Assembly: GCA_012523015.1 (NCBI GenBank)
Contig: JAAYJI010000317.1
Span: 1-49,003 of the forward strand
Direction: 5' to 3'
DNA length: 49,003 nucleotides
Source of the DNA: Candidatus Hydrogenedentota bacterium
Lineage (GTDB): Bacteria > Hydrogenedentota > Hydrogenedentia > Hydrogenedentales > CAITNO01
Part shown: piece after piece, positions 13,681-49,003 of the stretch
Numbering within the stretch: the first letter of the stretch is position 1
How the letters are laid out: every line of letters begins with the position of its first letter
Program-made: the position numbers and the translations under genes
Notes under the pieces: generated by a model
The model's database searches: none
What the model was told of the DNA's origin: nothing
The model's input: only the letters and a program-made list of their open reading frames with translations

Positions 13681-13816
13681 GGGAAGCTGTTTCCACCTGT
13701 ATAGTCCTCGGCGCGTCCATTCCTCTTGTAGTATGGGGTCTGTTGCATTTATCTTCTAAGGAGGGTAAGATAAACCCTTGGAGCTAATAACTGAGGAAAA
13801 AGGAGCTATACACGAT

Positions 13817-16800
13817 ATGGGGACTATCACGCTGATTTGCGGAGGCTATCAGAGCGACCGAAGTAAAGATATCGATATCTATTGGGAAAACCATTGGGGC
13901 CGGGCGCTGCTGCTGACACCAACACGCCGACTGGCTCGACAGCGCCTGGAACAGTTTATTCGAAGCCATCGATTGCCCGGAATTTGGGGCGCAGGTTCTT
14001 TTGAATTAACTGCCTTTGCAGCCAGCCTGTTGGAAAATCAGTACATTCCCATTCGCATGGTGTCACGCCTCGAACGGCGGCTGATCGTAAGAACCATTCT
14101 CGAAGAAATGGCACGAGACCGCGAGCTGCCCTCTTTCGGACAAAGTCCCGGATTGATTAAACATCTCTTGCGGCTCATCACACAATTGAAACAAGCCGCT
14201 ATTGACCCGGACCAATTTGAAAAAACAATTACCGCTCATGACCAACAAAATCCTATGGATATCTTCACGGCAACGGTCTATAAAGCATACCAAAAGATCC
14301 TGCATCAAAAAGCCTATTATGATGTTCCCGGCCTGTATTGGGCGGCGCGAGAATATTGCGACCAAGAGACCATTACCCTTCCCAATAATACAGAAATCCT
14401 TTTGCTTGACGGCTTTGACGATTTCACACCTTCCCAAGAACGTTTCCTTGAGTGTCTGTCAAAGCATGTATCCAAGATGGTGATTGGTATCAATATGGAT
14501 CCCGATCCCGATCAGGAGGGCCTCTTCCATCTGCAGAAAACGTGGGTTGATAATTTTCAGAAGAAGGTGAAGGCTAAACGAATCGACTATCTCACGGATC
14601 CGCCTAAAAATACCATTCAACACGCGGCTTATACCCTGTTTCGTGGAAGCGAATGCACCATTCCCCTTGAGGAAGAAACGAACTTGCAGCTGCAAGCCTG
14701 CGCCGACGGACAACATGAAATAGAGTGGATCGGCAGGAAGATCAAAACCATGATTCTGAATGAGTCTGTGTCACCTTCGTCCATTGCCGTTGCATTGACC
14801 GATATGCAAGAGAGCCACTACATGATTCGTGCCACTTTTGAAGAATTCGGCATTCCCTGCCGTTTCCCGGCACCTCGGCTTTCCGATACGCTTGCAGGAG
14901 TCATGGTTACCCGTATCATCCAGCTTTTCAGCAAGTGGAAAAGAGAAACGCTTTTAGCGGTGCTGTCCACCTCTCTTTGGGATAATTTCGAAGAATATCA
15001 TGGGGCTTGCATGACTTTTCCCACGATTATAAGAGCCTGTAAAGTTCGCATAGGCCGCCGCGGCTGGGAACGTACCGTGGCACTCTTAACGCAGCCGATG
15101 GATCCGGAGGCAGCCCTAAAGAGGCGCATGCCCCTTCCCTTGATGCGAAACCCACAAGCCTTAGCGCTCTTCCAACAACGCTTTCAAAAGCTCACCGACT
15201 TTGAAGATTCCATACCGGATCAGGGAAGCTTGGGAGCATACGCGCGTTTGTGGGAGGCCTTTTTAAATGATTCGGGAATGATCCGGTCCTGCGAAGGACA
15301 TCAACAACACGGCCCATCCATGGCAGGATTGCGCGCGCTGCTTCAGGAATTTTCAAACGATTCCACCACCAAGGCTCCCATGGATTGGACCAAGTTTTCG
15401 GAACTTTTGCGGGACAGCATGGCGGAAGTGGTGGTACACACAGATCCTCCCCAAGGGGAAAGCGTGTATTGCTGTACCATTGACCGCTTGCGCTGTGAAA
15501 GCTTCCCCCACATTTTTTTGGGCGGGTTAAACGAAGGGCTCATGCCGCGGCCTGCGCCGAGGAATGCTTTGTACTCAGAAATTGATCTGAGTCGATTGCG
15601 CAAAAACAATCTTATGTTGAGCGGGCGTGGTGAACATACCTACCGTGAACGTCTGATTTTTTATCATGCCCTATCTGCAGCTCAAACCAAGCTCTTTTTA
15701 ACGTGGCGCAAACAAGATAAATCAGGCCGTGATTCGTTGCCAAGTCCCTTCATCGTTGAATTAACAAATCGATTGGACAAAAAGTCGCCTGTGCTGCGCC
15801 CCGATCCTTTACCCGATTGTTTCGTGCCCATACCTGAAGAAATCGCCTCCTTCCATGACTTGGCGAATGTAGCCTATCTTCACCGCATCAAGACTAAACC
15901 ACAAAGTGTTTCAACGCGGCTATTCGACATTGACGCTTGCGCCGCCATTGAGGAAGAACGGCAAAGCAAAAAAAGTATTTCTAAATACGACGGTATCATT
16001 CTGGCGCCCGATCTCTTGGAACATTTAGCCGACCAGTACAGTAAAGACCATCTCTTCAGCGTCAGCAGTCTGGAACGGTATCTGCGCTTTCCTTTCGATT
16101 TCTTTATAAACAATGTCTTAGGTATCCGAAGCCTGAAGGAGCCCGACAACGAATTGGGGCCTATGCTCAGCGGCACCTTGCTCCACGAAATTTTGAGACG
16201 CTTCCATGAACACTACACAGGGCTTGCGGTACATAAGATTTTTGAAAAGGGCGAAGAAGCGGCTTTCGATACTTTGAAAACGATTATCGAAGAGGTCTTT
16301 CAAGACCACCGTTCAGAAATGGTGATCCTCCCTAAAGCGATCATCGACATTGAGCAACAACGTCTCCTTTATTTATTAAAACGATTTTTGAAACAAGATT
16401 TTTTCGAAGATGATGGTTTTTCGCCTTCTTATTTCGAGTGTTCTTTTGGAGAGGTGTATAAAAAAGAAATACAACCCCCTTCTGTTCCCGATCCTTTTGT
16501 CCTTAACTTATACGGACAAGAATACCGATTTTCAGGGATCATTGATCGTATCGACCGTTGTGAAAACCGGATCCGACTTATTGACTATAAACTCTCCGCC
16601 ACGCCGGCAGCGAAAGAAATCAAGGACGGACTTTCTCTCCAACTCACGCTATACACTAATGCAGCAAAAGAACTTTTGTTTCCTGACTGTGAGGTTGATT
16701 CAGCCTATTATCTTTCTGTATTGAAAGGGGATAAACGCGATGCGCTGCTGAAGAAGGCGGAGGATAGTGATGCCCGTAGATTAAAAGCAGCGTCGCAGAT

Positions 16801-16990
16801 TGTGTCCGCTGTGGCGAGTATTCGATCCGGCTATTTTCCACCTGCGCCGACAGATACTTCCGGACGCATCCCTCCCCATACAGCAGCGCGTTATGAGGAG
16901 TGGCGTATAGCGCCCAAAGAGCAACGCGCCTTGATTCATAGTTTTGACCCTGCCTTAGGTAAGGGGGAAGATCAAGTGAAAAAGAATTAA
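13817..16990 (+). CDS. addB: AddB-type subunit of the AddAB helicase-nuclease
   Basis: This large protein (1057 aa from this start) pairs with AddA. It has a degenerate UvrD-like helicase fold and a C-terminal PD-(D/E)XK nuclease. Counted from 13778, GTLLHEILRRFHEHY lies near 797, FSGIIDRIDR with the acidic residue near 922, LIDYK near 935, and QLTLY near 953. The N-terminus ITLICGGYQSDRSKD sits where B. subtilis AddB has a Walker A motif, and no GxGKT is visible. The C-terminal cysteine triplet that binds a 4Fe-4S cluster in B. subtilis AddB is also absent. The start is uncertain: ATG 13817 has AAGGAG upstream, and TTG 13778 has a stronger AAGGAGGG and adds 13 residues. addA follows after 14 nt. 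Confidence 0.88.
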   Translation: MGTITLICGGYQSDRSKDIDIYWENHWGRALLLTPTRRLARQRLEQFIRSHRLPGIWGAGSFELTAFAASLLENQYIPIRMVSRLERRLIVRTILEEMARDRELPSFGQSPGLIKHLLRLITQLKQAAIDPDQFEKTITAHDQQNPMDIFTATVYKAYQKILHQKAYYDVPGLYWAAREYCDQETITLPNNTEILLLDGFDDFTPSQERFLECLSKHVSKMVIGINMDPDPDQEGLFHLQKTWVDNFQKKVKAKRIDYLTDPPKNTIQHAAYTLFRGSECTIPLEEETNLQLQACADGQHEIEWIGRKIKTMILNESVSPSSIAVALTDMQESHYMIRATFEEFGIPCRFPAPRLSDTLAGVMVTRIIQLFSKWKRETLLAVLSTSLWDNFEEYHGACMTFPTIIRACKVRIGRRGWERTVALLTQPMDPEAALKRRMPLPLMRNPQALALFQQRFQKLTDFEDSIPDQGSLGAYARLWEAFLNDSGMIRSCEGHQQHGPSMAGLRALLQEFSNDSTTKAPMDWTKFSELLRDSMAEVVVHTDPPQGESVYCCTIDRLRCESFPHIFLGGLNEGLMPRPAPRNALYSEIDLSRLRKNNLMLSGRGEHTYRERLIFYHALSAAQTKLFLTWRKQDKSGRDSLPSPFIVELTNRLDKKSPVLRPDPLPDCFVPIPEEIASFHDLANVAYLHRIKTKPQSVSTRLFDIDACAAIEEERQSKKSISKYDGIILAPDLLEHLADQYSKDHLFSVSSLERYLRFPFDFFINNVLGIRSLKEPDNELGPMLSGTLLHEILRRFHEHYTGLAVHKIFEKGEEAAFDTLKTIIEEVFQDHRSEMVILPKAIIDIEQQRLLYLLKRFLKQDFFEDDGFSPSYFECSFGEVYKKEIQPPSVPDPFVLNLYGQEYRFSGIIDRIDRCENRIRLIDYKLSATPAAKEIKDGLSLQLTLYTNAAKELLFPDCEVDSAYYLSVLKGDKRDALLKKAEDSDARRLKAASQIVSAVASIRSGYFPPAPTDTSGRIPPHTAARYEEWRIAPKEQRALIHSFDPALGKGEDQVKKN

Positions 16991-17004
16991 CGAGGGGAAT
17001 AGGT

Positions 17005-20000
17005 ATGAGATTTACGGATGATCAAATAAAAGCAATCACAAAAGACAGTCCGCGCATCAGCGTGTCCGCGGGAGCGGGCTCCGGTAAGACCGCCATATTG
17101 GTTGAGCGCATTGCTCATTTGCTGTGTAATCCTCGGTACTGGCGAAACAAAGGCCCCGCTTTGGATCGTATCGTGGCTATTACCTTCACGGATAAGGCAG
17201 CCGATGAAATGAAAGCGCGATTGCGTCAGCGTTTCCGCGAGGGACAACGCAAGGCGGAGCTTTTCGAGGATGTCGACTGGCGCGAATTAGAACGGGAAGT
17301 TGACGGCGCAAGGATTAGTACCATCCATTCCTTTTGTGCTTCCATTCTTCGCGCCCATGCCTTGCGCATCGGCATGGATCCTGAATGGGGTGTCCTTGAT
17401 GATGCCGACGCGAACCAATTAATGGAAGATACGCTGTCCGATACGATTGAGGAGTTGTTGAAAAAGAAGGATCCTGCAACAATACGCCTTTCTATTGAGT
17501 GGGGACTGCAACAATTAAAATCCGCCTTCAAAGAAATGTTTAACAAAAGAAATGAATGGCTGGATACAGAGAATAGGAGCCGTTACGACAATCCCGATAG
17601 GTTGTATGCATTTTGGGATGATCAGTGGGGCCGTGCTAAAGAATCTTTTCTTCAAAATTGCCAGTTCAACCGAAAATTGCCCTTTCTCCTGAAAAATTTA
17701 CAGGATTTGGATGGATTGTGCTCCTCAAATGATGATAGGCGGGAAATGCAGCGTATTGCTTGTATACGCGTGCTGAGGGCTATTGCCGACGGCGCTACCG
17801 ATTTGGGCGATCGTATCGACCATTATAAGTCCGAATTTCCGCGAATGAGTATCTCTAAAAAGGCGTGGGCGGAAGAAGATTTTAAACGGGTTGGTGAAGC
17901 GATTAAAGAGGCAAATAGTTTTTTGAAAGAAGATTGTTTGCTGCCCACTTGGAATGAGACTTTAGAACGGGCAGCGGCACGTGCCACCTGTGATTTTTTT
18001 CAAGTGGGCTGCCGGGTAATGGATGCGTATCGCAATGCACGAAAGGCCTATAACAGCCTTGATTTCGACGATATCATCAACGAGACACTCGCCTTATTAC
18101 GAGAAGATAAAGAATTAAAAGAACAGGTCGCTTCCGAAATAGAATTTCTTTTTATAGACGAATTCCAAGACACCGATCTGGTTCAATTGGAAATCGCAAA
18201 ACTATTGAGCGCAGTAGATAAGGGTCCGCGTTTATTTGTGGTGGGAGATGCTAAACAATCGATCTATTATTTCCGTGGAGCAGAAGTGGATTTATTCAAT
18301 ACCTTCATCAACGAAGATCCGGATCCCATACGACTCAAGGAAAACTTCCGTTCTCTTCCTAATGTGATGAATTTTGTCAATACCTTCTTTGGCGCTTCAA
18401 AAATGCTGGCCGCTGTAGAAGTGTACAGGCCTACGCAAGCTCCCCGCAAAGCGCTTACGGGTCCCCGCGTTGAATACTTTTTTCCTAAAACCTTGGAAGA
18501 TGAAAAGCTTAGTGAAGATAAAAAACATGAACTGGAAGCGCAGTTCATTGCGGCGCGAATCCTTGAATTCTGTGCCGACAATTCAAGTACAGAAATTTTT
18601 GATACGGCGTTGAATGCCTATCGACGCCCCATCTTTGATGATATTGTGTTGCTTTTTAGACGCAGCACTTACATGGTTGCCTATGAAACTGCCTTTCGCG
18701 CGTGGAACATCCCCTTCAATCGCGTCGCAGGGGTCGGATTTTTTCAACGCCGAGAAATTCAAGATATTCTTGCCCTTCTCCAATTGATTGTAGATCCTTG
18801 GGACGAGGAAGCGTTGTTAACCGTATTGCGCAGTCCCATGGTGGGCGTATCCGATGAGACTTTGATGCGCATGGCTTTGGCGGGAGGCGTGGCATCCACC
18901 TTCCATACCGACCGTATTCCTGACAATTGTGATGATGTGCCTGCTTTGACGCGGGGTCGACGTCTTTTTAAAGAGCTTTATGAAAAACGCGAAGAAGAGC
19001 CGGGCTCTTTTATTCGATCTGTCTTAGCAAAGAGCAACTATGAAGCTATCTTGCTGAATTCACATCTGGGATTGCAGCGTGCCGCCAATCTTCGTAAAGT
19101 CATTCAACTTGCCGATAATTTGGGCAGGTCACGATCGGCTATGCTCCATGAATTTAAGCGCTACTTGGAAGAAGTCACGCTCATGGAACTGAAAGAAGGG
19201 GAGTCTTCCCTTCAAACGAAAGGAATGGGCGCCGTCACTTTGATCACCGTCCATAAAGCCAAAGGGCTTGAATATCCCATTGTTTTTTTACCGGAGACAC
19301 ATGCAGAAAACAGGAAGTCCGGCAGGAATTTCTTCCAATATCGCAAAGAATTCGGATTGAGTATCAAAGCGCCGGATGAAGAGGGCGAAACGAAAAACGG
19401 CGCTTTTGGCGCGTTGATGAGTCGCTTTGATGACCATGAGAATATGATGGAGAACGCCCGTATTCTCTATGTGGCGATGACCCGTGCCCGTGATTATTTG
19501 GTCTTGTGTGGCAGATCTGATGCGCGATTAAACAGCTGGGCCGGCATGTTCAACAAAGTACTCAACTTACACCAATGGGAGCACAACGACGTTGCTCAAG
19601 GGGACGGTTGGAGCGTCTTGATAAAAAACGACCAGCCTGATCAGAGCAAACCAATTAAAGACAAGGCCATGGAACTGCAGCTTGACCCGAAAAGGCTTGA
19701 TCGGCAATTACAGCCCCTAGGTATTACAAAAACAGAAAAGCGCGTCTTTTCTGTGTCGCATTTGTTGGCGTTCCTGACCCATGCGGAAAGCAGCCTATTT
19801 GAATGTGAAAGGGATACGCTTTCAGAAGAAGGCGAAGACCTCTCGGCACAGTCTCCCCGCAATCGTGAATTCGCCATGGCACGAGGCACGCTGGTGCATA
19901 CACTTTTTGAAAGGTGGGATTTTAAAAAGGATCAAGTCCCTGATCTTCGTCAATTAATCATGGAAGCAGGGCTGGGCCTATCTCAATTTGATAACCTGTA

Positions 20001-20394
20001 CCAAAGTTTGGAACACATTATACATTCCTTTCGTAACTCACCGTTATGGTCACTATATACCCGTGCTCGACGCATTGAACGGGAAGTGCCTTTTCTTTTT
20101 GATATAGGTCCGATCATGATCCGAGGCGTAGTGGATGCGGTGATCGACGGTAACATTATTGTGGATTATAAAACAGGTAAGGCAGGCGGCGCCCTTGAAA
20201 GCTCTTATGAAAACCAACTGTATTTGTATGGCGCCGCATTGAATGCCTTACAGGGGCAGACTCCGAAGGAAGGGCTGCTCTGGTATGCTGAAGCGAATAA
20301 GGTGCATACCGTAGCCATGGATCAACGAAAGATCGACGAATTTCTACAGTATCTTCATGAATTTTGCGGCACATTTCAAGAGGCTGCCAAGTGA
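17005..20394 (+). CDS. addA: AddA-type UvrD-family helicase with RecB-like nuclease
   Basis: This 1129-aa superfamily 1A helicase/nuclease resects double-strand breaks to load RecA. Helicase motifs appear in order: Walker A SAGAGSGKTA (residues 21-30), Ia AITFTDKAADEM, ISTIHSFCASIL, II FIDEFQDTD (near 384), III VVGDAKQSIYYFRGAEVDLF, V TVHKAKGLEYPIVFLPE, and VI VAMTRARDYLVL. The C-terminal nuclease has ARGTLVHTLFERWD near 958 and the catalytic core GVVDAVIDGNIIVDYKTGKA near 1040, then ENQLYLYGAAL. All key residues look intact. The length is close to B. subtilis AddA. GAGGGGAATAGGT gives a ribosome binding site. It is co-transcribed with addB. Confidence 0.95.
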   Translation: MRFTDDQIKAITKDSPRISVSAGAGSGKTAILVERIAHLLCNPRYWRNKGPALDRIVAITFTDKAADEMKARLRQRFREGQRKAELFEDVDWRELEREVDGARISTIHSFCASILRAHALRIGMDPEWGVLDDADANQLMEDTLSDTIEELLKKKDPATIRLSIEWGLQQLKSAFKEMFNKRNEWLDTENRSRYDNPDRLYAFWDDQWGRAKESFLQNCQFNRKLPFLLKNLQDLDGLCSSNDDRREMQRIACIRVLRAIADGATDLGDRIDHYKSEFPRMSISKKAWAEEDFKRVGEAIKEANSFLKEDCLLPTWNETLERAAARATCDFFQVGCRVMDAYRNARKAYNSLDFDDIINETLALLREDKELKEQVASEIEFLFIDEFQDTDLVQLEIAKLLSAVDKGPRLFVVGDAKQSIYYFRGAEVDLFNTFINEDPDPIRLKENFRSLPNVMNFVNTFFGASKMLAAVEVYRPTQAPRKALTGPRVEYFFPKTLEDEKLSEDKKHELEAQFIAARILEFCADNSSTEIFDTALNAYRRPIFDDIVLLFRRSTYMVAYETAFRAWNIPFNRVAGVGFFQRREIQDILALLQLIVDPWDEEALLTVLRSPMVGVSDETLMRMALAGGVASTFHTDRIPDNCDDVPALTRGRRLFKELYEKREEEPGSFIRSVLAKSNYEAILLNSHLGLQRAANLRKVIQLADNLGRSRSAMLHEFKRYLEEVTLMELKEGESSLQTKGMGAVTLITVHKAKGLEYPIVFLPETHAENRKSGRNFFQYRKEFGLSIKAPDEEGETKNGAFGALMSRFDDHENMMENARILYVAMTRARDYLVLCGRSDARLNSWAGMFNKVLNLHQWEHNDVAQGDGWSVLIKNDQPDQSKPIKDKAMELQLDPKRLDRQLQPLGITKTEKRVFSVSHLLAFLTHAESSLFECERDTLSEEGEDLSAQSPRNREFAMARGTLVHTLFERWDFKKDQVPDLRQLIMEAGLGLSQFDNLYQSLEHIIHSFRNSPLWSLYTRARRIEREVPFLFDIGPIMIRGVVDAVIDGNIIVDYKTGKAGGALESSYENQLYLYGAALNALQGQTPKEGLLWYAEANKVHTVAMDQRKIDEFLQYLHEFCGTFQEAAK

Positions 20395-20508: not shown

Positions 20509-22770
20509 GTGCTGCGACAATTAAGGGATCAACAATTGGGTTTCGTTTCACAATCAAAATCAGAAGCAGCGGCAATTCGTCGGATTTTTCAGGGAGAACC
20601 GGAAGCATACCGAGTCATCATTGAGCGATATCAACCTTTGGTTTACGCGGTTGCACTGGCGTGCACCGGAAATCTGGATATGACTGACAAGGTAGTGGTG
20701 GAAACCTTTGAAGAAGGGTACGGTCGGCTCGTCGCCTTGACAGAACCGGGCAAGCTGGGGTTCCTTTTGTGTTCCATTGCAGAAAAATATGCGGAACAAT
20801 TTACCTTCAAACGTATTCCCAATTGGAACAAACCCCGTTTTCGTGAAAGCTCAGAAAACGCAGTGGACTTGTCATGGGTTCAAACGGAACTCATCGAACC
20901 CTTAAACGAAGAATTGGGCTCTTTCACTTCCCAAGAGAAACAAGGTATTTTACTTAACGCCTTTTGCGGGCTCAACGCGGCTCAAATTGCCCAAGTTTTA
21001 AAAATAGACAAGAAAGAGGCTGCGGAAGATCTTGCTCGGACCCGTGAGAATGTGGAAAAGGCGCTGTTAAAAGAAGTGGTCAAGGCGCTGAAACACGAAG
21101 TCAACAACAAAGAGCGTCTATTGAGCATAGCCGGTCGAATTGGCGGCCCTGAAGTAGCCGCTCAGATGGCTGACAAGACCAAGCTCGGCAAAGCCAAAGT
21201 TAAACTGCTGCCCCTCTTTTTGACGGTTGTCGCCCTGTTTGTAGTGGGAATCTCAGGCCTATTTATTTATCAGGTTGTTCAGCGAATGCCGGGCACGACA
21301 GGTGACGTACAGCAAGCCGTCGTACAACAGGAATCTGAAGGAGCTGAAGCAGCGCCGGCAGATGAGGGACGCAAAACACCGGCTCCGCCCCCTTCCAATT
21401 ATGCGATAAAGGGCCGTGTCGTTGATGAACGTTTTTCTACCGACGGAATCGCAGGTATCACGGTTGAAACCTCCGGGCAAAAAGCGGAGACCGACTTTTA
21501 CGGCGCTTTCGAAATCCGAGGTATTGCGCGGGGTGAGCATGCTGTTACCTTGCGTGTCGGTGACCGTGTTGTTAAAAAGGATGTGCGGCTCAATACGGAA
21601 AAAGAGAATGCGCCGATCGATATCCGTCTGGATGATAATATCCCTGCTCGTTTCCATTTCCATGGGCGCGCCTTTGATCGTCAAACGGGTCGCGCACTGA
21701 CTGAATTTGAAGTGGCCGCATGTAAAGACTTCCCTGAAATGCTGCAGCCTTATGTGATCGAAAAGTTATTCATACCGCAAAAACAATCGGAAGGAATGAT
21801 CCATGAACGCTTTGTGGCACTGGGCGATTATACGGTCTATGTTCGCGCCCGAGGCTATGCCCCCTTACCGGTAGAATTTTCCATTGATGAAAAATGGGAC
21901 GGTCAACAAATTTACGACTTCCCTCTGTACCGTGCGACCGGTTTGAAAGCGGTGGTTTACGGCTCTAATGAACTGTCCTTGGAAGGAGCCTATTTTATCC
22001 CCCGTTATGGAACTCAACGGGGTGTTGCCATGGACAAGGTGGATTATGGCCGTACCAACTCTATGGGGCGACTGGAATTGTACACGCTGCCTGTGGGCAT
22101 TCAATCGTTTTATATTGCCCATCAAGAAGAAACAGCCCGCGCCATTGTCGATTTAGAGCCGGGAAAAATACAAGAAATCGTCGTAGAATTCCCGCGAAAA
22201 GGCGCGTTGACCGGAGACATTACCTTATTTGGCCGACCTACAAAATTCAATGATTTCCGAAGGCAGGCTACCGGAAGTATGCTGGATCTGAGTAAGAATC
22301 TGAATTATAACGCTCCCGGTCAATACGAAATTACCTTGACGCCGGAGCCTGTCTTTATCTGCGGAACGGTAACGCCTTCCGGTCCGGCCCAATGGTTCTC
22401 TTGGTCCATGAAAAAACATGTCACGATTAATGCAAGCGCAGTAACATGGCTTGATTTTAATTTTAACAGCGGCAGCGCTGTTTTAAATGGAAACATTAAT
22501 CTGTCAAACACTTCGAATCGCGTGGTATATGCGGAAGTCAGCCTCAATCATGAAGAAGGTACTGACAGCATTTATTACAATCTGAGCGGTCCCGGCAGTT
22601 TCCAGTTGACAGACATCAACTATGGTTCCGGTTCTTTGACTATTTATGCCGCATCACAACGCCAGAACGCCTCCGATTTCGAGACGGCTCGGGGGCTTAT
22701 GGACAAACAAACCAAAACCTTCGAATTGAGCGATAAAAAGAAATCCGCCTATTTGGATTTCACGCTGTAA
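20509..22770 (+). CDS. Membrane-tethered ECF-sigma-like protein with extracytoplasmic regulatory-like domains
   Basis: The 753-aa product joins parts that rarely occur together. Residues 17-98 resemble sigma-70 region 2 (FQGEPEAYRVIIERYQPLVY). Residues 131-187 resemble region 4 with its helix-turn-helix (LNEELGSFTSQEKQGILL and GLNAAQIAQVLKIDKKEA). Residues 232-256 are one clear membrane helix. A Glu/Ala/Pro linker follows, then a carboxypeptidase-regulatory-like beta domain at 298-374 (AIKGRVVDERFSTDGIAGI) and more beta-rich sequence to the end. The expected topology is sigma part inside, beta part outside. ECF factors with C-terminal membrane extensions are known in Planctomycetota. The start is uncertain: GTG 20509 is the longest option, while TTG 20536 has AAGGG eight bases upstream. 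It could instead be a non-functional sigma relic used as a membrane scaffold. Confidence 0.82.
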   Translation: MLRQLRDQQLGFVSQSKSEAAAIRRIFQGEPEAYRVIIERYQPLVYAVALACTGNLDMTDKVVVETFEEGYGRLVALTEPGKLGFLLCSIAEKYAEQFTFKRIPNWNKPRFRESSENAVDLSWVQTELIEPLNEELGSFTSQEKQGILLNAFCGLNAAQIAQVLKIDKKEAAEDLARTRENVEKALLKEVVKALKHEVNNKERLLSIAGRIGGPEVAAQMADKTKLGKAKVKLLPLFLTVVALFVVGISGLFIYQVVQRMPGTTGDVQQAVVQQESEGAEAAPADEGRKTPAPPPSNYAIKGRVVDERFSTDGIAGITVETSGQKAETDFYGAFEIRGIARGEHAVTLRVGDRVVKKDVRLNTEKENAPIDIRLDDNIPARFHFHGRAFDRQTGRALTEFEVAACKDFPEMLQPYVIEKLFIPQKQSEGMIHERFVALGDYTVYVRARGYAPLPVEFSIDEKWDGQQIYDFPLYRATGLKAVVYGSNELSLEGAYFIPRYGTQRGVAMDKVDYGRTNSMGRLELYTLPVGIQSFYIAHQEETARAIVDLEPGKIQEIVVEFPRKGALTGDITLFGRPTKFNDFRRQATGSMLDLSKNLNYNAPGQYEITLTPEPVFICGTVTPSGPAQWFSWSMKKHVTINASAVTWLDFNFNSGSAVLNGNINLSNTSNRVVYAEVSLNHEEGTDSIYYNLSGPGSFQLTDINYGSGSLTIYAASQRQNASDFETARGLMDKQTKTFELSDKKKSAYLDFTL

Positions 22771-22878
22771 CTTTAATGCAATCTCAAAGATGCATCGAAT
22801 TAAGACGATACCGGACGTTGTTTCTGTAGATACACGCGCTATGTGGTAACAAATTCTTTATCGGCAACAATATTCTCT

Positions 22879-23661
22879 ATGAAATCAAAACGTAGAAATA
22901 GCTCAGCCTACCTGCTGTCCTTTCTCATTGCGCTCTTCAGCCCCTTTCTTCTGGTTGCCGAAGAGCAGCTTACCGTTACGGAAGGGAGAGAGACCGTCAC
23001 AGAACAGGCGCAGGAACCTTTAAAAGAGACTGTAGTATTGCTTCAGGGTATGGGTCGCGGCCGCGCTTCTCTATGGGTGCTCGATACGCGCCTGCGCAAA
23101 GAAGGCTTTAATACAGTGACCTTTCCCTATATAGCGCGCAATGACTCTATTGACGAACTTGCTTCTCAGTTGTGCAGTTTCTTGGAAACAGAACTCCACG
23201 GCGCGCCCTACCATTTAATCGCCCACTCCCTCGGCAATATTATTATTCGCGCCGCCTTTCGCGAAGGACTACCCGAAGGATTGAAACGCATTGTCATGCT
23301 CGCGCCGCCCAACCAGCCCGCTGATCTTGTCCGCGCCTTACGGGAAAATAAAATCTACCAGTGGTTTACGGGAGAAAGCGGCCAACAACTCGCCTCCGAA
23401 GAATTTTATAGTCAATTACCTATACCCGACGTGGCCTTTGGAATTATTGCCGGTACGCAAGGGCAAGACTTGAGATTAGATGAACCTAATGACGGGGTGA
23501 TCCGCTGTGAACAAACAAAACTTGAGGGCATGACGGATTGGATCGCCGTAGAACAATCCCATAATTTCATTATGAACAGCAAAATCGTGGCAAGCCTCTG
23601 CGTCTCTTTTCTGGAACAGGGCCGCTTCGACCGAGCAATTTTGGAATCGGCAGAAGACTGA
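22879..23661 (+). CDS. Secreted alpha/beta-hydrolase, lipase-like
   Basis: From ATG 22879 the protein is 260 aa. A signal peptide is visible (MKSKRRNSSAYLLSFLIALF, then SPFLLVAEE). Oxyanion-loop region VVLLQGMGRGRASLW is followed by the nucleophile elbow IAHSLGNIII, a GxSxG-like AHSLG with Ser. Candidate Asp lies in RLDEPNDGVI and His in EQSHNF. The layout resembles bacterial triacylglycerol lipases and PGAP1-like esterases. The open frame extends back to GTG 22843, but that start would put 12 residues in front of the signal peptide. No good ribosome binding site precedes either start. The gene follows the sigma-fusion gene by ~110 nt and converges with the WbsX-like gene. The substrate is unknown. 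Confidence 0.87.
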   Translation: MKSKRRNSSAYLLSFLIALFSPFLLVAEEQLTVTEGRETVTEQAQEPLKETVVLLQGMGRGRASLWVLDTRLRKEGFNTVTFPYIARNDSIDELASQLCSFLETELHGAPYHLIAHSLGNIIIRAAFREGLPEGLKRIVMLAPPNQPADLVRALRENKIYQWFTGESGQQLASEEFYSQLPIPDVAFGIIAGTQGQDLRLDEPNDGVIRCEQTKLEGMTDWIAVEQSHNFIMNSKIVASLCVSFLEQGRFDRAILESAED

Positions 23662-46535: not shown

Positions 46536-49003
46536 TCATGGCGCACACACAACGCGGAACCCTACATCATGGACGCATTGGCTAGCGTCGAAGTGATTGC
46601 GGAAAGCTGAACGGCCCCGCTTCGGACAGTCCCGCCAAGAACCGCCGCGCACCACCTTAGCCTGATCTGATCCGTACGAAGAAGCGGTCCATTCCGCTAC
46701 GTTACCATGCATGTCATGGAAGCCCCAGGGGTTGGGCCGGAAACTTCCGACTGCAGCGGAAACACGCCACGTATCATCAAAGCGCGTGTCTGCGGGGCGC
46801 CAAGGCGGTATGGCGGTGGGTACATGGGGATAATAGACGGTGTGGTGGGTGGCGTCGGAGAAGTTCGCTGACGTCGAAAATTCGGAGTCCAAGGTTCCGT
46901 ACCAGAGGGGCGTTGTCGTGCCGGCACGACAGGTATATTCCCATTCTTCTTCAGTGGGTAGACGGAACGATCTGCCCGTATGTGCCGTGAGCCATTCGCA
47001 AAAGCGCATAGCCTGTTCCCAAGATACACGGACCACCGGCTGTTCCGGACGGTTGAGTGTGTGCCCTCTTTCGTCGTCGCCGAACTGATAAGCCTCCCCT
47101 GTCTCCAAGCCGCTGTCGTGCCCCGGGTCAAAGCAACGGTATTGTTCATTGGTAATCTCGAATTTTCCCATCAGGAAAGGTTCTTCGATAGACACGCTTA
47201 GCGCGGGACCTTCATTGGTATAGCCGCGATCAGCGCCCATTTGAAATTCACCGGCGTCTACAAAGACCAGTTCCAAATCGACCCCTTCCGCCAGATTCAC
47301 CCGTTCTATCAGTGTTTCTTTTGCCGTGTCTTTTAGCGCACGCTCCGTATCTTCCGCGAAATCACGGGGCACACAGTGCAGCCGATCGGCGAGATCTTCG
47401 GGAGCCGCTATCTCGGCCGTGGGCGGGATCTCCTCTTCATCCACATCCATGCCCGCATAACGGTGATGGAGTTCACGACGCCGCTGTGCGCCGTGTTTTG
47501 CAGCTGCTATTTTCGTTGCATTTTGACCGGCTTCCGCAACTTCCTGCCATGTGCCGTGGAAGGGCGCGTTCAGGTCTATCCACGTAATAATCCGATCCCA
47601 CGCCTCATCACTCAATTGAACACCATAATGATCATCTCGGAGCAGCTGCACCAGCGTGCTCGTATCGGCATGAAAATCACGAGGGGTCAACATGTGTGCG
47701 TCACTTTCGAGGGTGGGCGCATTTACCCAAGGGCGCAGCGCCATATAAGAAGGCGAAAAATACATTTGAAAGGCGGAAGGAATCTTTTTAGTAGACCGTG
47801 CCGTGAGATCAAAGTTCACTGTGCCATCCTCAAAATCCTTGCCGTCGTGACAACGAATGCAATAGGCATCCAGCACGGGCTGTACCTCCCGGTCAAAAGA
47901 AAAGCCCCGCGCCGCGCCGTACCAAGGCCGTATGGTGGAGGGTTCTCGTTGAAAAGCCTGACGGATCCCGTCGTAATCGCCCAGTGTATTTTGGGCTTCA
48001 TGGCATCCTGTGCAGGAAAGCGTTTCGCCGGGCATGGCAGTAAGCCAACTGCGCATCAACGCCACAGCCTTGCCGTCTTCATCCAGCGGCTGCAGGGCGA
48101 TAGGCGTGTGGGCGGGCACCGTGAAATGGGCAGAGCCGTCTTCATCGACCGGAACGGTTCCGATGATTCGTTTCACATCCCAAGGTCCGTCCAATCCCAC
48201 CCGATCCGGTTCACAGCCCAATTCATGGAAGGTATAGGTATAGCCTATGAGCCGCAAGGCTTTGACCGTTCCTCGGGGAACTCCTGCAAGTCCCGGCCCC
48301 TGATAAACGTCGGTGAGCATGACCCTTGCTTCTGTCCCGTTGAAATCCACTTTGTCGGGAACCACCGGTTGTCGCGGTATTTCCCGCCACGGCACAGGTT
48401 CTAAAAACGCCCAATCCGCTTCTTCATGAATCAGAACAAAATTATTGAAAACATCTACCAAATAAATCCCCCAAAGAGCGTCTATGCTTGGCTTACAAGA
48501 GACAAGAAAATAGTGTTCATTCAGGGGCCATGGGTGGAGAAAGCGCGGCCAAATCGCTGAAACCAGCCCGTCCAAAATAACGGGTTTCACTTCTTTACCA
48601 TCATCAGGAATACGTCGGACGACACCTTCCGCTTCATGGCGGCCCAAGGCAGGATCCAATATAAGCAATTCCCCTTGGCGCGGCGCGTCATGATGTCCGC
48701 CGGCGACGGCAACAACTTTGGTCGGATGATTGGGGATGGGCCGCGCATAAAATAAGGAGGCAGGCCAAAAGGAGTTGCTCCCATAATATTCCATTTGTGC
48801 GCTGCCATCGGGGCCGCAATGAAACAAGAGCCGATAGAAGGCATGGGCGATATCGGCGTATTCCCAACGCAAATAGAGGATACGCCCATTATTGAGCACC
48901 GTGGGGCACCAGTTATGATCTTGATCATTCGTGAGTCTGCGCACTTGCCCGTCCACTTCGCGCAGATACAAATTAGCGACCTTGGAACGCCCCCCTACAC
49001 AGG
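46536..49003 (-). CDS. Hydrazine-synthase-alpha-like diheme protein with C-terminal SUMF1-like domain (5' end outside window)
   Basis: The frame is open to the window edge; the visible part is ~820 aa, and the protein starts outside. The N-terminal visible part is propeller-like, paralogous to the neighbour: NGRILYLRWEYADIAHAFYR and GSNSFWPAS. Two haem sites follow, CTGCH (48014-48000) and CIRCH (47861-47847). A final domain of ~250 residues is formylglycine-generating-enzyme-like: DAGEFQMGAD, NEQYRCF, SWEQAMRFCEWL, RLPTEEEWEYTCRAG, GNVAEW, VRGGSWRD, and a last GFRVV. The position of the paired catalytic cysteines in FGE is changed: RGGSWRDCPKRGRSAFR has only one Cys. It is thus probably not an active FGE but a binding or structural domain. 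It lies upstream of the other HzsA-like gene. Confidence 0.9.
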   Translation of the reverse strand, partial: CVGGRSKVANLYLREVDGQVRRLTNDQDHNWCPTVLNNGRILYLRWEYADIAHAFYRLLFHCGPDGSAQMEYYGSNSFWPASLFYARPIPNHPTKVVAVAGGHHDAPRQGELLILDPALGRHEAEGVVRRIPDDGKEVKPVILDGLVSAIWPRFLHPWPLNEHYFLVSCKPSIDALWGIYLVDVFNNFVLIHEEADWAFLEPVPWREIPRQPVVPDKVDFNGTEARVMLTDVYQGPGLAGVPRGTVKALRLIGYTYTFHELGCEPDRVGLDGPWDVKRIIGTVPVDEDGSAHFTVPAHTPIALQPLDEDGKAVALMRSWLTAMPGETLSCTGCHEAQNTLGDYDGIRQAFQREPSTIRPWYGAARGFSFDREVQPVLDAYCIRCHDGKDFEDGTVNFDLTARSTKKIPSAFQMYFSPSYMALRPWVNAPTLESDAHMLTPRDFHADTSTLVQLLRDDHYGVQLSDEAWDRIITWIDLNAPFHGTWQEVAEAGQNATKIAAAKHGAQRRRELHHRYAGMDVDEEEIPPTAEIAAPEDLADRLHCVPRDFAEDTERALKDTAKETLIERVNLAEGVDLELVFVDAGEFQMGADRGYTNEGPALSVSIEEPFLMGKFEITNEQYRCFDPGHDSGLETGEAYQFGDDERGHTLNRPEQPVVRVSWEQAMRFCEWLTAHTGRSFRLPTEEEWEYTCRAGTTTPLWYGTLDSEFSTSANFSDATHHTVYYPHVPTAIPPWRPADTRFDDTWRVSAAVGSFRPNPWGFHDMHGNVAEWTASSYGSDQAKVVRGGSWRDCPKRGRSAFRNHFDASQCVHDVGFRVVCAP

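Follow-up and report, generated by a model that had tools for sequence, protein, structure and literature searches.

The open reading frame at 20509-22770 of the window, by which we mean the whole analysed stretch of 49,003 nucleotides, encodes a protein that we read, with what we judge to be an even chance of being right, as a membrane-anchored pseudo-sigma factor, that is, a sigma-shaped domain that has ceased to direct transcription itself and serves instead to bind other proteins, in connection with a beta domain at the cell surface. Its near-unchanged conservation in one bacterial family suggests, from sequence comparison, that a part of the transcription machinery was turned into a membrane signalling adaptor. 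The window comes from contig C317 of a 3.7-Mb MAG of Candidatus Hydrogenedentota that is 95.8% complete. The frame that the preliminary description had marked out is present on the forward strand with 753 codons. Its true start is probably the TTG at 20536, giving a protein of 744 aa, since this codon is preceded by AATTAAGGGATC and aligns with the GTG start of a 67%-identical orthologue. Promoter and terminator scans of the region yielded no signal above shuffles. The features of the locus are the following:

20509..22770, forward strand: coding sequence of the membrane-anchored pseudo-sigma, 753 aa as listed; start probably TTG 20536
20560..20823, forward strand: sigma2-like domain, residues 18-105, with D60-K61-V-V-V64 in place of E-D-x-x-Q
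20860..21066, forward strand: sigma4-like domain, residues 118-186, with E173-D174 in the recognition helix in place of K-R
21067..21201, forward strand: juxtamembrane segment, residues 187-231, three short predicted helices, common to the fusion family
21202..21279, forward strand: single membrane helix, residues 232-257, N-inside by charge
21280..21399, forward strand: variable linker, residues 258-297
21400..21636, forward strand: CarboxypepD_reg domain (Pfam), residues 298-376
21637..22767, forward strand: further beta-sandwich domains, residues 377-753
22843..23661, forward strand: alpha/beta hydrolase, lipase-like, with a signal-peptide-like start; start probably ATG 22879

The preliminary description had recognized sigma regions 2 and 4 in the N-terminal part, and this assignment was borne out by profile and structure comparisons. 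Searched as a single sequence, residues 1-190 stayed below the Pfam cut-offs for both Sigma70_r2 (E = 0.2, 11.9 bits versus a cut-off of 24) and r4_2 (E = 0.07, 13.2 bits versus 25.7), and each of the two profiles matched just 2 of 15 orthologues (best E = 0.0026 and 0.03, respectively). The NCBIfam sigma70-ECF profile (TIGR02937) covered residues 33-186 with E = 1.6e-5 and the SigY profile matched with E = 9e-7, both below their curated cut-offs; the HMM check proposed earlier thus failed with Pfam but found the sigma domain, short of the curated cut-off, with NCBIfam. When a profile built from 14 orthologues only was compared with all PDB chains, every match was an ECF sigma factor, including SigW (5e-7), AlgU (2e-6) and E. 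coli sigmaE (9e-6 to 1e-5), and the single full-length protein returned only noise from the PDB. On genome contigs the single-protein query matched nothing and the alignment query detected the orthologues. A further PDB search, with alignment A4, was left out of the homology evidence because A4 includes ordinary ECFs. An AlphaFold2 model of residues 1-260 (pLDDT 88) showed sigma2 and sigma4 with four helices each, then three short helices in the juxtamembrane region (184-223) and finally the membrane helix. Its top Foldseek matches in the PDB were AlgU, SigW, CnrH and sigmaE (probability 1.00, E = 4e-3 to 2e-2); E-values of this modest order (4e-3 and worse) are usual for small helical domains. 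These top matches included ECFs bound to their anti-sigma factors (CnrH-CnrY and SigW-RsiW), with PhyR ranking lower. Structure prediction therefore recovered the sigma2 and sigma4 helices with ECF sigma factors as the best PDB matches, and neither the lack of a significant sigma profile match nor the lack of a sigma fold, each of which had been named as speaking against the assignment, was what we found.

The residues that mark this fold as a sigma factor have been replaced. We aligned 15 orthologues with 45 other ECF domains, consisting of 20 fusions, 17 free-standing ECFs of the same family and 8 verrucomicrobial relatives. In the comparison set (n = 45), Gln64 is kept in 98%, Asp61 in 93% and Glu60 in 84% of the domains, whereas E60, D61 and Q64 of region 2.2 are retained in 0 of 15 orthologues. 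These carry D60 (15/15), K or R61 (12/15) and V or A64 (15/15), so that the E-D..Q signature reads mostly D-K..V; E65 is replaced in 12 of the 15, and Arg/Asn at 92-93 is likewise lost. In the sigma4 recognition helix, Lys173 and Arg174 of the fusions have become Glu (15/15 orthologues) and Asp (13/15), and the net charge of the helix is -0.9 (range -2 to 0) versus means of +2.8 to +3.4 in four comparison sets. A second set held 40 fusion domains from other families, 38 of them read in frame (L174 and L206 were left out), and Gln64 and Lys173 are kept in all 38 readable relatives. Gln64 presumably corresponds to the known core-binding glutamine of sigma70 (Q406) and sigma32 (Q80). In ECFs, sigma2 is reported to attach to the beta-prime coiled coil by way of conserved residues (PMC6411747). 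Judged from the alignment, the positions lost family-wide are those expected to contact core polymerase and promoter, and we infer that the window protein cannot act as a sigma factor. R177 and the sigma4 hydrophobic core (L149, I160 and L175) are kept in the orthologues, so weak binding to RNA polymerase may remain. The replaced residues tell us what the pseudo-sigma probably no longer does, not what it does.

The single helix that the preliminary description had placed at 232-256 is a membrane helix at about 233-257. Among the 14 orthologues whose sequence includes it, the flanks contain 5-9 K/R in the 20 residues before the helix and 0-3 after it, an excess that places the N terminus, and with it the sigma end, inside the cell. 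The carboxypeptidase-regulatory-like domain proposed for the outside was likewise recovered, as a CarboxypepD_reg match at residues 300-374 (Pfam, E = 1e-8, above the cut-off), and is found in 14 of 15 orthologue sequences, the fifteenth of which ends before the domain. The outer part consists of about five Ig/CarboxypepD_reg-like beta-sandwiches, and in a full-length Foldseek comparison the region after the CarboxypepD_reg domain appeared as a chain of pilin/prealbumin-like sandwiches. Residues 187-231 contain no cysteine, which leaves the juxtamembrane segment without a zinc anti-sigma motif, and Pfam gave no zf-HC2 match in the window protein.

Profile searches of 68 genomes of the phylum revealed an orthologue, single-copy and with E < 1e-104, in 16 of the 17 genomes that make up the window's family and in 0 of the 51 genomes outside it; the next best match in the phylum was 1e-35 or weaker. 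The one family genome without an orthologue is 82% complete, and among the 16 that have one, G001 and G002 carry identical copies. When 60 genomes were searched with the protein, full-length orthologues came up within the window's family, and many more distant relatives were spread over the rest of the order. Within the 68 genomes, 65 of the 74 non-orthologous matches (E < 1e-18) belong to open frames that are 450 residues or longer, and the fusion matches include dozens of paralogues with intact ECF domains. Sigma70_r2 and r4_2 were found in 12 of 12 aligned fusion examples and CarboxypepD_reg in 8 of 12, several of which are partial in the fetched stretch. The domain order, which the preliminary description held to be unusual, is accordingly that of a fusion family expanded in Hydrogenedentota, with up to 11 matches in one genome. 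At loci L018-L030, L128-L133, L140 and L153 (G001-G062), an intact ECF domain is followed by one membrane helix and a CarboxypepD_reg/Ig-like outer part, in open frames of about 450-1400 residues that in two cases contain STN domains too. Alignment of the pseudo-sigma profile with the fusions by hhalign (probability 99.8, E = 1e-29) extended over query residues 1-215 and thus included the juxtamembrane part.

In a maximum-likelihood tree the orthologues formed one clade (support 100/100) with a stem of 2.34 substitutions per site and short inner branches, and the position of this clade among the fusions had moderate support (90/74). Mean pairwise identity within the clade is 66% in sigma4, 55% in sigma2, 51% in the juxtamembrane segment and 45-48% in the outer domains, and for those comparisons of the sigma domains in which dS is unsaturated, omega lies at 0.05-0.22. 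By these measures the sigma domain is under purifying selection since the change on the stem. Such a course, with much change first and strict conservation afterwards, is typical of a protein that has gained a new function and not of one that is decaying. Together, these comparisons indicate that the pseudo-sigma derives from the membrane-fused ECF relatives of Hydrogenedentota, with the intact fusions as its probable source. They have the same order of parts and a homologous juxtamembrane segment; in contrast to the single-copy pseudo-sigma, they keep E-D..Q and K-R, match the Pfam sigma profiles and occur in many divergent copies.

Membrane-fused ECF sigma factors have been described mostly from Actinobacteria, together with one case from Pseudomonas. 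For ECF48, ECF52 and ECF53, a membrane-held sigma factor with proteolytic release has been proposed (PMC8999054; PMC5826349). Like the window protein, these groups (ECF52 being represented by SCO4117 of Streptomyces) combine an N-terminal ECF domain, a membrane helix and a large outside domain (PMC8999054, PMC5826349). In both, the outside domain may bind surface polymers; that of the window protein is CarboxypepD_reg/Ig-like. They are actinobacterial and carry a zinc-finger anti-sigma part (zf-HC2, Hx3Cx2C; pfam13490 in ECF52), of which the window protein has no zinc motif, and SCO4117 is a working regulator, whereas the window protein has lost the sigma signature residues. IutY of Pseudomonas putida (ECF243) is a sigma factor fused to an anti-sigma factor that is released by Prc and RseP and then acts as an iron-signalling sigma factor (PMC8999054). 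It resembles the window protein in joining a sigma domain and a membrane-bound regulatory part in one polypeptide, and the juxtamembrane segment of the window protein, of about 45 residues, could act as a built-in anti-sigma; it differs in its release by Prc/RseP and subsequent sigma activity, neither of which is supported for the window protein.

These comparisons allow us to propose how the pseudo-sigma might have arisen and how it might work. Its ancestor was probably a membrane-fused ECF sigma factor of the type expanded in Hydrogenedentota (ECF domain, membrane helix and CarboxypepD_reg beta domains). Sequence comparison shows that this domain, before the window's family diversified, lost the residues that contact RNA polymerase and promoter and then became fixed in a new, strongly conserved form. 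The sigma-shaped module would bind a protein at the inner face of the membrane, and the surface beta domain would set the availability of this module through the membrane helix and the juxtamembrane segment. The most plausible partner would be an anti-sigma factor, or else some other protein that binds sigma factors; by mimicry of the PhyR kind, the pseudo-sigma would then release or retain a genuine ECF sigma factor. In its most specific version, which we offer tentatively and by analogy, the protein would be a transmembrane sigma mimic whose cytoplasmic end captures an anti-sigma factor, and a signal at the envelope would in this way set free a genuine sigma factor encoded separately. In PhyR the sigma2-sigma4 fold is not used as a sigma factor, as would probably hold for the window protein with its lost signature residues, and PhyR is among the PDB fold matches of the window protein. 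PhyR, however, is a cytoplasmic protein of Alphaproteobacteria with a receiver domain and no membrane anchor; the Pfam scan found no receiver domain in the window protein, in which the membrane helix and the surface beta domain would take the place of the control part. Mimics of the PhyR type bind the anti-sigma NepR; for the window protein, the zf-HC2 anti-sigmas of the family genomes are candidates. As a positive control we searched three alphaproteobacterial genomes for PhyR sequences and found none there; a candidate PhyR locus proved to be an ordinary ECF gene followed by a gene for a zinc-motif protein and was discarded.

A gene for a zf-HC2 anti-sigma is present at least once in each of the 17 family genomes. 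One of them, a membrane zf-HC2 anti-sigma gene (G000:C155:3949-5229), lies directly after an intact free-standing ECF gene (G000:C155:3308-3946; the pair is L167:3308-5229), and free-standing ECFs of this type are, in most family genomes, among the best non-fusion matches of the pseudo-sigma profile, through sigma2. We therefore regard this ECF and zf-HC2 anti-sigma pair as a candidate partner of the pseudo-sigma, and as nothing more. Pairs related to it were seen in other family genomes. At the pseudo-sigma locus itself, no anti-sigma or regulator gene was found next to the coding sequence. The downstream hydrolase gene adjoins the pseudo-sigma in nine genomes of four genera (G000-G003, G007, G008, G010, G013 and G015), and three other genera have unrelated genes next to the pseudo-sigma. 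All 17 family genomes contain one strong orthologue of the hydrolase, which occurs also in genomes of families f2, f9, f10 and f11. We rejected it as a dedicated partner, since it is not adjacent in three genera and occurs in families without the pseudo-sigma. The earlier remark that the neighbouring genes give no target has to be set against this recurrence of the hydrolase beside the gene, although the pairing is absent elsewhere. Upstream, an AddB/AddA-like helicase-nuclease pair (window 13778-20394) precedes the pseudo-sigma also in G001 and G003, and the AddA-like gene keeps this place in G008 and G013.

The preliminary description had suggested a one-protein signalling system with proteolytic release of the sigma part. 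In this form the protein would be a still working, if unusual, sigma factor, held at the membrane until a surface signal triggers proteolysis and the released domain uses RNA polymerase at an unusual promoter. The sigma fold found by profile and by structure, and the intact sigma domains of relatives with the same architecture, are in its favour. The genome also contains a site-2 protease gene, as nearly all genomes do. Precedent comes from IutY and from the proposals for ECF48, ECF52 and ECF53 (PMC8999054). Nevertheless, the core-binding signature and the basic recognition helix are replaced throughout the group, whereas the relatives keep both, and the Pfam sigma profiles fail for nearly all orthologues, so that we consider a working sigma factor unlikely. 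What stands of the earlier suggestion is the class of system, which is known and fits the intact paralogues; an active released sigma is improbable here because the signature residues are replaced. By analogy, the model of a membrane-held, protease-released sigma factor may well apply to the intact Hydrogenedentota fusions.

Two other readings dispense with sigma activity. The sigma fold could be a purely structural membrane scaffold, or part of an enzymatic complex, such as an adaptor of an envelope machine, with no role in transcription. The loss of the sigma residues, the housekeeping-like conservation as a single copy across the family, the lack of an adjacent regulator or anti-sigma gene and the secreted-type hydrolase that adjoins in four genera all agree with a scaffold. 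That pairing, however, is lost in three genera, and the hydrolase occurs alone in other families; sigma4 is moreover the most conserved part, and nothing would oblige a generic scaffold to stay sigma-shaped, although this last argument is weak. On these grounds a scaffold seems to us rather unlikely. Alternatively, the protein might be an inhibitor that binds RNA polymerase, or that sits on its own anti-sigma-like juxtamembrane helices, and so holds polymerase or another sigma factor at the membrane. The sigma4 hydrophobic positions L149, I160 and L175 are kept, and in the AlphaFold2 model the juxtamembrane helices would be similar in size to two-helix anti-sigmas such as those of the CnrY/NepR type, but in region 2.2 the charge is reversed at the positions that should provide most of the contact with core polymerase, which makes an inhibitor very improbable.

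Membrane-fused ECFs and sigma mimics are each already known; in the literature searched, whose coverage did not reach the main ECF classification papers, we found no conserved protein that combines the two features. If the pseudo-sigma reading in its mimic version is true, the protein would correspond to PhyR in a membrane-bound form, descended from a sigma factor that was itself anchored in the membrane; sigma mimicry would then have arisen separately here, in direct connection with a sensor outside the cell. The whole phylum expanded membrane-fused ECFs, and one family turned one copy into a fixed pseudo-sigma. With the intact fusions as the earlier state and the pseudo-sigma as the later one, it could be asked which residues make the difference between a sigma factor and an adaptor that only has its shape. 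Elsewhere in the window, at 46536-48971, an FGE-sulfatase domain is joined to a hydrazine-synthase-alpha middle domain.
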